Source: a virus. Taken from it: a stretch of DNA of 23,267 bases. Positions 18,078-19,932 of the stretch are shown one piece after another. The notes below the pieces were generated by a model. The model saw nothing but the letters and a program-made list of their open reading frames with translations. It was not told where the DNA came from and ran no database searches. The stretch lies in the IMG/VR virus record IMGVR_UViG_3300035633_001189, positions 1 to 23,267 of that record. One strand, written 5' to 3'. Numbering within the stretch: the stretch's first letter is position 1; every line of letters starts with the position of its first letter. The position numbers and the translations under genes are program-made.

Positions 18078-19595
18078 TCAATTCACGGCGTGAGCGATCG
18101 CTGTTACATTTCGTCCGCTCGCTGATCGCTCGCCTGATGGATTGTAGGAAGCTTGTAAAGAGACTGCTTTTTCAAAGTCCCTTCTTAATACAGAACCGAC
18201 CCTATTATGTTCTCCCTCCTGTTGATAGGCAGAAACGAGATCCTTGAAGAGCCATTCAATAAATCTAGGATACACCTTCATCAGCCTTTCTTTCTTTGCT
18301 CGGTTCTGGCACTGTGGCGCAAATTCATAGAACAACTGCAGACGGCATATTGCCGGGCTCATCTTTGTGATTTCAGTGGCCACTTCTACCAGGCGATCGC
18401 TTTTCCAGGGTTCGTTACTGGTGCTGGCTCCGGCCTGTTCCATCAGCGATCGAAAGCAATAGCGGTCTAAGACTGCCTTTCGCTTCTTGCCTTTGAGTCC
18501 TTCGATCTGCTGGGCCAGGTCGGGGTAAAGCTTCTGCAATCGCATCAGCGAGGGCTGCCGCCGGGTCACTACTGCCATTTCTAGGTACGAGTAGATCGCT
18601 GCTCGGGTTTGGCGATCGCCAGTCTTGGCCCAAAACTCTTTTTTGCCCGACTGTATCCACTGTCGTCCTGCCCCTAAGGCGCGTTTGAATTGCTTCAGCG
18701 ATCGATTGCGAACAGTCCGGTTCTGGTGGCTTTTGTCGGTAGAGTAAACCCTTTTAAGCAAGGGCTTGCCGTCCTTCAGGAATTGCTCTAGTGGGTAACA
18801 GGCCGCTATGAGTGCAACCTGTGTAGTGTCGTTGATACTCCAGTTGTTGAGCACCTGGCGATAGAAGCTGAAATCTTCCGAGTTTAGAAGGTCGTTGCAT
18901 TCGCACTCTACCGAAAAAGTCAGTCTCTCCAGTGAGCAGATTTGTACTGCAAGCTGTCTGGAAAATTCGCTAATGCCTCTGCCGGTCGTTACCTCCGGTA
19001 CTCGGGTTGCTTTGGGGTGCAATAGTTCCTCCCCTGCGATCGCTCGCCAGATGGCTGGGGGCTTCGGTTCCATCCATACCCTGCTCATGCTCTTGGCGTT
19101 GTGCAGTTCAGGGCACTCATACACCAGCCGCGATCGCAGTTGGTTGATTAGGGCAGTCCGCTGTTTAGTCAGGGCCTGCAGACTCCGATACTTCTCTTTG
19201 ATTTCAATCGCATCTATGCTCACGAATGCCTTGTGATTTTGCCGCCGCAAGTGCTTTAGCCCAAAGGCGGCGATGACTGCGGCATCTTCTCGATCGGCTT
19301 TGTTCAAGATACCGTTTTCTTTGGCATGGTTGCGGATCCGGATCCCGGTGGCACCTAAGACGACTTTTCCTTGTCGTCTTAGGTGCTCCACAAAAATCTT
19401 GTGGTCTGAGCCGGTGGGTTCCAAAACAAAAACCTGACTCAACCTGGCCAGGGCGTCTAAGTCGGCCTGCGAGGTACCGAAGTTTTGAGGCTGATAACTG
19501 CGGGCAAATTCTAGCAGGTCTGCTGGTTCCTCCTCTAGGTGGCAAGCGGTTGCCTTGCCGCGACTGATATCTAGTCCAACAATTCCAGTGATCAT
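18078..19595 (-). CDS. Divergent IS110/Piv-like DEDD recombinase (transposase)
   Basis: A 505-residue protein. The N-terminal RuvC-like domain carries the DEDD set: D9 in VGLDISRG, E59 in VFVLEPTG, and D101 and D104 in NKADREDA, followed by helical QALTKQRTALINQLRSRL. The C-terminal part has YPLEQFLKDGKP, FKRALGAGRQWIQSGKK and a candidate catalytic Ser in QSG (S315), the position used by IS110-family serine recombination. It is longer than usual IS110 enzymes (about 330-450 residues), with a long C-terminal extension. IS110 relatives excise circles and integrate without classical terminal repeats, guided by a bridge RNA from flanking non-coding DNA; Piv invertases belong to the same family. 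HIP1 content is like the neighbours, so it is not an obvious recent import. Confidence 0.82.
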   Translation of the reverse strand: MITGIVGLDISRGKATACHLEEEPADLLEFARSYQPQNFGTSQADLDALARLSQVFVLEPTGSDHKIFVEHLRRQGKVVLGATGIRIRNHAKENGILNKADREDAAVIAAFGLKHLRRQNHKAFVSIDAIEIKEKYRSLQALTKQRTALINQLRSRLVYECPELHNAKSMSRVWMEPKPPAIWRAIAGEELLHPKATRVPEVTTGRGISEFSRQLAVQICSLERLTFSVECECNDLLNSEDFSFYRQVLNNWSINDTTQVALIAACYPLEQFLKDGKPLLKRVYSTDKSHQNRTVRNRSLKQFKRALGAGRQWIQSGKKEFWAKTGDRQTRAAIYSYLEMAVVTRRQPSLMRLQKLYPDLAQQIEGLKGKKRKAVLDRYCFRSLMEQAGASTSNEPWKSDRLVEVATEITKMSPAICRLQLFYEFAPQCQNRAKKERLMKVYPRFIEWLFKDLVSAYQQEGEHNRVGSVLRRDFEKAVSLQASYNPSGERSASGRNVTAIAHAVN

Positions 19596-19697
19596 GGCTG
19601 CACCTAATTGAATAGTTCAGCTACTATCCCGATATTCTGTAAAGGCGGCTGCCGTCGGCGTCGCCCAAATCGACCCTTAAGCATGGGTAGCTGAGTT

Positions 19698-19895
19698 GTG
19701 AAAACGCAAGCTGACCTTCATTACGGGAAGGCAGCGCAAGCTGACCCTGATTCTGTCAGGGTCGTTATGGTTGCCCCTTATATAAGGAGGTCAGCTTTGC
19801 GCTTTGCGGGGGTATGGTGGCCTCCCGCGACCCCGCAAGTGTGCGGGGTTTCGCGCCTGGCCAGGGCGACTCATCAGGCGGGTGGGTCAAGCTAA
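19698..19895 (+). CDS. Doubtful 65-aa plus-strand frame over the structured region
   Basis: The frame is open from 19698 to 19895 (GVWWPPATPQVCGVSRLARA near its end) and an AAGGAGGT-like sequence occurs inside it, seven bases before an in-frame TTG at 19797. It coincides with the inverted-repeat block and nested hairpin, and its composition follows those repeats, so it is more likely an open frame over structural DNA than a gene. It is listed because nothing else is seen in 19596-19932. Confidence 0.15.
   Translation: MKTQADLHYGKAAQADPDSVRVVMVAPYIRRSALRFAGVWWPPATPQVCGVSRLARATHQAGGSS
19700..19801. repeat. Structured inverted/direct repeat block upstream of the recombinase
   Basis: CGCAAGCTGACC occurs at 19705-19716 and again at 19735-19746, and inverted (with one extra T) at 19789-19801. 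Each direct copy starts a hairpin: GCTG(A)CCTTC/GAAGGCAGC around ATTACGG, and GACCCTGA/TCAGGGTC around TTCTG. The perfect palindrome CCTTATATAAGG is at 19776-19787. The block lies about 100-200 bp upstream of the recombinase ATG. Confidence 0.8.
19804..19862. other. Pair of mutually exclusive hairpins (candidate switch or attenuator)
   Basis: TTGCGGGG (19804-19811) can pair with CCCCGCAA (19831-19838). The same CCCCGC (19831-19836) can instead pair with GCGGGG (19843-19848), which is embedded in a nested stem GGCC-CGCG-CCCCGC...GCGGGG-CGCG-GGCC spanning 19819-19862. The two folds compete. A strong AAGGAGGT ribosome-binding-like motif lies just before (19784-19791), but the only frame it could serve is short. 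Confidence 0.55.
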
Positions 19896-19932
19896 GGTTT
19901 CCTGCAGCTTTCGGGCTGTTGTGCTGGGGTCG

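Follow-up and report, generated by a model that had tools for sequence, protein, structure and literature searches.

Background

Bridge RNA-guided recombination has been described for IS621 (PMC11208160, PMC11208158) and for the seekRNA elements ISEc21 and ISEc11 (PMC11187229), in which a DEDD and serine recombinase is accompanied by an upstream noncoding RNA whose target loop and donor loop carry guides that match the flanks and the element's own ends. A promoter at the joined ends has been described for IS110 (PMC11208160), and processing by the transposase has been proposed for seekRNA (PMC11187229). Bacterial hammerhead ribozymes near prophage integrases are also already known (PMC3088659). 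The present analysis concerns an IS110-type recombinase gene and the structured region upstream of it in the window, the whole stretch of DNA analysed, which is a 23,267-base linear viral record (IMG/VR record IMGVR_UViG_3300035633_001189). This gene is very likely the integrase of a tailed cyanobacterial phage, its specificity set by an upstream bridge RNA with a hammerhead-made 5' end.

The locus resembles IS621 and the seekRNA elements in its DEDD and serine recombinase and in the placement and loop organization of its RNA, with guide matches to flanks and ends found among relatives. Unlike those elements, a hammerhead fronts the RNA, the carriers are a tailed phage or elements of 10-19 kilobases (kb), a long distance separates the RNA from the left end, and the protein belongs to a distinct subfamily, NF051857. 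It also differs from the IS1111 group, defined by a noncoding RNA downstream of the recombinase, as the RNA here is upstream. With the hammerheads near prophage integrases (PMC3088659) it shares the core, a loop II pseudoknot and the phage or integrase neighbourhood; unlike them, the ribozyme described here is missed by Rfam models, is tied to one IS110-type family and is followed by a guide RNA. Bridge RNAs and integrase-associated hammerheads are thus each known, and their combination is a variant of the bridge RNA kind. No paper joining a hammerhead to a bridge RNA was found in the open-access literature, a search that left most subscription papers and preprints outside its scope. Filamentous phages of Neisseria use Piv/IS110-type recombinases for integration, and we know of no hammerhead-fronted bridge RNA in them; unlike these, the phage considered here is tailed.

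Results and discussion

The recombinase and its family

The recombinase scores above the curated cut-off of the NCBIfam family NF051857 'transpos_IS110_2' (245.8 bits against 180, E 7.8e-73) and matches NF033542 only below the cut-off of that model. The only Pfam match is the DEDD domain (PF01548, 1e-12); the C-terminal Transposase_20 domain (PF02371) gave no Pfam match up to E 1, and NF051857 covers the C-terminal part instead. The original prediction, made from the letters of the window, had described a DEDD recombinase of 505 amino acids (aa) with D9, E59, D101 and D104 and a C-terminal serine at position 315. The open reading frame (ORF) is present, and both the tetrad and the serine are invariant in an alignment of 15 homologues, with the serine located at position 316. 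The extra length over the 393-position family model consists of an insert after the serine and a C-terminal tail. Among solved structures the family profile matched only ISCro4 and IS621, across the DEDD part. The closest relative of the window enzyme is a 489-aa protein of genome G552 (49% identity), and its other closer relatives are in G068, G019, G431, G421 and G544. NF051857 was above cut-off in 28 of 386 cyanobacterial genomes, several of them with multiple copies. Single-protein scans of the viral_contigs and genome_contigs sets found no relatives; the profile of the main group of relatives had no match in viral_contigs, and tblastn had none against phage records.

A hammerhead ribozyme precedes the recombinase gene

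Alignment of the regions upstream of homologous recombinase genes revealed a conserved RNA that opens with CUGANGA followed by a helix, GAAA, a second helix and GUC, with CCCGC and GCGGG on either side. This arrangement is that of a hammerhead ribozyme, which the original prediction overlooked; in the window, the CUGANGA..GAAA..UH core and three helices are all present. No Rfam hammerhead family reached its gathering score, or gave any match to E 5 for the window region, and none was found at the relatives' sites. We therefore built a covariance model from the relatives, with the window left out. The model matches positions 19806-19884 of the window on the minus strand (56.4 bits, E 3.3e-14). 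It detects a hammerhead at 35 of 42 recombinase loci (its training set included 18 of these sequences or near copies of them) and at 0 of 80 unrelated cyanobacterial control loci, so that the structured DNA does travel with the gene. A scan of 292 genomes gave 33 hammerhead sites, and the recombinase gene lies immediately downstream in 27 of the 30 that were fetched. The remaining three are L242, a short locus that may lie at a contig end, L246, and L250, which is weak; the matches at L246 and L250 may be decayed copies or other hosts of the ribozyme.

Covariation across homologous loci, raised earlier as a check on the upstream region, is found in the hammerhead stems. Among 39 distinct loci, stem III pairs in 38-39 of the 39 sequences, with four or five pair types at several positions, and none of 2000 shuffles reached the pairing frequency seen at several positions of stems II and III. 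The covariation score of an 18-sequence alignment was 0.55; shuffles scored 0.15 and slid structures no more than 0.21. Pairing between loop II and the segment just 3' of the cleavage site was above every shuffle, and the window retains it as UGGCC/GGCCA.

Guides in related elements match flanks and ends

In the main group, the RNA after the ribozyme forms two hairpins with internal loops (RNAalifold). The internal loops of hairpin 1 differ between elements on a conserved scaffold, and those of hairpin 2 are nearly constant. The DNA immediately beyond the right end agrees with the right internal loop of hairpin 1 at 86 of 90 positions (18 elements, five nucleotides (nt) each), the element's own flank being the best or joint-best match for all 18. 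The left ends were located through the left internal loop, and there GAATCCCCA adjoins the matching flank; in G076 this sequence also marks where the similarity of two copies starts. The left target guide equals the last five flank bases in 6 of 6 elements. The left end proved to be GAATCCCC and not GAATCACC, a motif that had been predicted for it. The left guide of hairpin 2 varies between GAGACTGAA, GAGAGTGAA and GAGAATGAA, and in 18 of 18 elements this variation follows the right end of the element itself. Permuted right flanks gave 28.4 matches on average and 56 at most, with 0 of 100,000 reaching 86, and in the donor-guide comparison one of 100,000 permutations reached 18 of 18; as both sets include related elements, these counts are not exact probabilities. 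Read from these matches, the RNA in the best-resolved relatives is a bridge RNA. The principal guess of the original prediction, guidance of the bridge RNA type, is supported by these homologues.

The related elements are large

When copies within one genome are compared, similarity runs in pieces for many kb upstream of the recombinase and ends within about 60 nt of its stop codon. These are therefore large elements in which the recombinase is the last gene. Sizes determined by script were 11.5, 13.1, 13.8 and 16.0 kb, with others of about 10-19 kb. Two joined-flank queries recovered uninterrupted empty sites in relatives, the carrier genome being interrupted where predicted, with 3-4 bases in common; the comparison of loci with and without the gene, proposed earlier as a way to find its ends, thus confirms them. 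A third joined-flank string, G076a, fell inside a toxin-antitoxin-type gene and was set aside.

Conserved neighbours in the 10-19 kb elements include an XRE-type regulator. Upstream of the IS110-type recombinase, at a distance of about 2-11 kb, 18 of 20 loci (L136-L154) encode a conserved 192-aa tyrosine recombinase (PF00589), and the elements consequently carry two kinds of recombinase. The 16 kb element of G346 (L147, L176, L177) is inserted where the stop codon of one host gene overlaps the start codon of the next (ATGA); by eye, the second gene resembles a dndD-type ATPase of DNA phosphorothioation, and the site is intact in relatives.

The predicted guide RNA of the window and its phage relatives

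The upstream region of the window folds far better than its shuffles (z -4.9 on the minus strand, -4.3 on the plus strand). The direct and inverted copies reported earlier are located there: CGCAAGCTGACC is present in direct orientation at 19705 and 19735, and 10 nt at 19788-19797 match it in inverted orientation. In the target hairpin this repeat forms part of the outer stem, and G552 retains it. The guide-like RNA ends at the recombinase start codon, and the hammerhead core precedes its bulged hairpins. The target and donor guides of the window (Table 1) are putative assignments from the fold and from comparison with G552, which has the same hammerhead and RNA architecture. A hairpin with ACAGAAT, tried as the target guide of this group, gave no site and was replaced by the architecture common to G552. 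On the plus strand near 18013, 8 nt match the right target guide, but in the wrong orientation, and this match was set aside.

Guides read from the fold in G421 give the right flank exactly (TAAGATAAT, about 29 nt past the stop codon) as well as the left junction GAAACCTTAATCTCT, and these junctions delimit a 13.8-kb element. In G431, the right junction differs from that predicted by the guides at one or two positions.

The same phage genes are found with the recombinase at three cyanobacterial loci (G552, G068 and G544). G552 keeps the order of the window's phage genes; in G544 and G068 the order is permuted at the recombinase 3' end, which is consistent with integration at a site beside the recombinase. 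The gene is thus resident in a phage lineage, at a predicted attachment end, which supports the earlier suggestion that it encodes the integration enzyme of the element.

A predicted attachment site within the recombinase gene

The donor guides of the window, GGGTCGAT (left) and ATTCTGTA (right, reverse-complemented), predict the donor GGGTCG-AT-TCTGTA. The predicted phage attachment site (attP), on the gene's strand, differs from this donor at one of 14 positions; no other part of the window comes this close, and 0 of 100 shuffles reached this, a significance somewhat overstated because the donor-guide register was picked from among several considered. At the homologous site in G552, 12 of 14 positions agree with the guides of that genome, a level reached by 7 of 200 shuffles. 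The window and G552 records seem, from these junction matches, to hold the joined, unintegrated form. If the predicted attP is right, the last ~40 recombinase codons (18078-18189) would lie on the left-end side, and the tail of the protein would be replaced on integration.

Several points weigh against the guided-integrase reading of the window. Its guides come from visual inspection of two similar sequences, the window and G552, and the donor register was settled on after other readings had failed. The target guide (CCTTAT-AT-TACGGG) is a prediction only, the window showing no host flank. Stem II of its hammerhead carries a bulged U, 7 of the 42 relatives' loci are without a detectable hammerhead, and the RNA of G544 is much shorter, too short for reading guides.

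The joined form also bears on an explanation considered earlier, that the recombinase belongs to an ordinary small IS110-type insertion sequence (IS) that entered the phage by chance. IS110 elements are usually short, and NF051857 is multi-copy in several genomes; nevertheless, related elements are 10-19 kb long with the recombinase as last gene, a small IS does not fit the phage synteny of G552, G068 and G544, no left end was found close upstream of the window hammerhead, and the predicted donor site has right and left ends joined. This explanation is accordingly very improbable. Least probable of all is a Piv-like inversion enzyme (phase variation had also been suggested) that acts on tail or receptor-binding genes, since the search of the window gave only one donor-like junction and no inverted partner and the relatives move between sites, although Piv and MooV are related DEDD recombinases and the gene adjoins the 3' end of the structural module.

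Proposed mechanism

Under the integrase model, a minus-strand transcript bearing the hammerhead would start upstream of 19882, and self-cleavage at 19829/19828 would give it a defined 5' end. The trimmed RNA, of about 230 nt, would comprise the 5' hairpin, the target-binding hairpin and the donor-binding region before the start codon, and would bind the recombinase. Its donor loop would pair with attP and its target loop with the predicted host site. The two loops would thereby bring attP and the host site together, and the DEDD and serine recombinase would exchange strands at the short shared core. A 5' end set by the ribozyme would need neither the joined-end promoter of IS110 nor the transposase processing proposed for seekRNA.

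The hammerhead may also serve to separate the guide RNA from the mRNA. A role mainly on the mRNA, in stability or translation, beside an RNA that guides the recombinase is unlikely: the hammerhead does also lie upstream of the recombinase start codon, and RNA 5' ends are known here from prediction only, but at nearly every locus the 5' hairpin of the guide RNA follows it directly, and the 3' strand of its stem I is able to pair again within that hairpin. More broadly, this lineage of cyanobacterial phages and 10-19 kb elements probably integrates by RNA-programmed recombination, with a hammerhead that frees the bridge RNA and with changes in the target loop that redirect entire phages or elements.

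If true, a self-cleaving ribozyme sets the 5' end of a recombination guide RNA, uniting two kinds of functional RNA. This would offer a specific function for the hammerheads long seen near prophage integrases (PMC3088659). Recombinases of the bridge RNA type apparently mobilise 10-19 kb elements and tailed phages, and the many natural pairs of guide and target would make the programming rules readable.

Features of the window

Table 1. Coordinates of the recombinase gene, predicted RNA parts and phage genes in the window
Feature	Position	Strand	Basis or detail
Phage head and packaging module	7303..15970	plus	PHROGs matches; synteny with recombinase-bearing loci
Small terminase	7303-7680	plus	PHROGs
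Large terminase	8086-9465	plus	PHROGs
Portal	12781-14244	plus	PHROGs
Major capsid	14837-15970	plus	PHROGs
IS110-type DEDD/Ser recombinase	18078..19595	minus	505 aa; NCBIfam NF051857; D9, E59, D101, D104, S316
Predicted attP (right-end/left-end junction)	18189..18202	minus	GGGTCG-GT-TCTGTA; inside recombinase 3' end; one mismatch to guide-predicted donor
Predicted donor-binding region (approximate extent)	19604..19700	minus	Left guide CTTAAGGGTCGAT 19669-19681; right guide 19632-19644, reverse complement ATATTCTGTAAAG
Predicted target-binding hairpin	19701..19805	minus	Left guide CCTTATAT 19780-19787; right guide CCCGTAAT 19720-19727; fold and G552 comparison
5' hairpin of predicted trimmed RNA	19806..19828	minus	Stem I 3' strand; GGCCA complementary to loop II (UGGCC)
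Hammerhead ribozyme	19829..19882	minus	Stem I CCCGC, core CUGAUGA, stem II (one bulged U), GAAA, stem III, GUC; predicted cut 19829/19828

Between the capsid gene and the recombinase (15970-17997, plus strand), no tail or tape-measure gene was recognised; the window element may be either a small phage of an unusual kind or a satellite that forms capsids. Three copies of the intergenic motif TTAAGGGTCACG lie on the plus strand (8022, 16664 and 22455), with more repeated sequence nearby; the motif is perhaps a phage promoter or operator. An ORF at 4047-4472 on the minus strand reads by eye like a GIY-YIG endonuclease. At the contig end (22621-23262, minus strand) is an FGE-sulfatase (formylglycine-generating enzyme) gene (PF03781, 6e-41), the nearest relatives of which (up to 66%) are all cyanobacterial.
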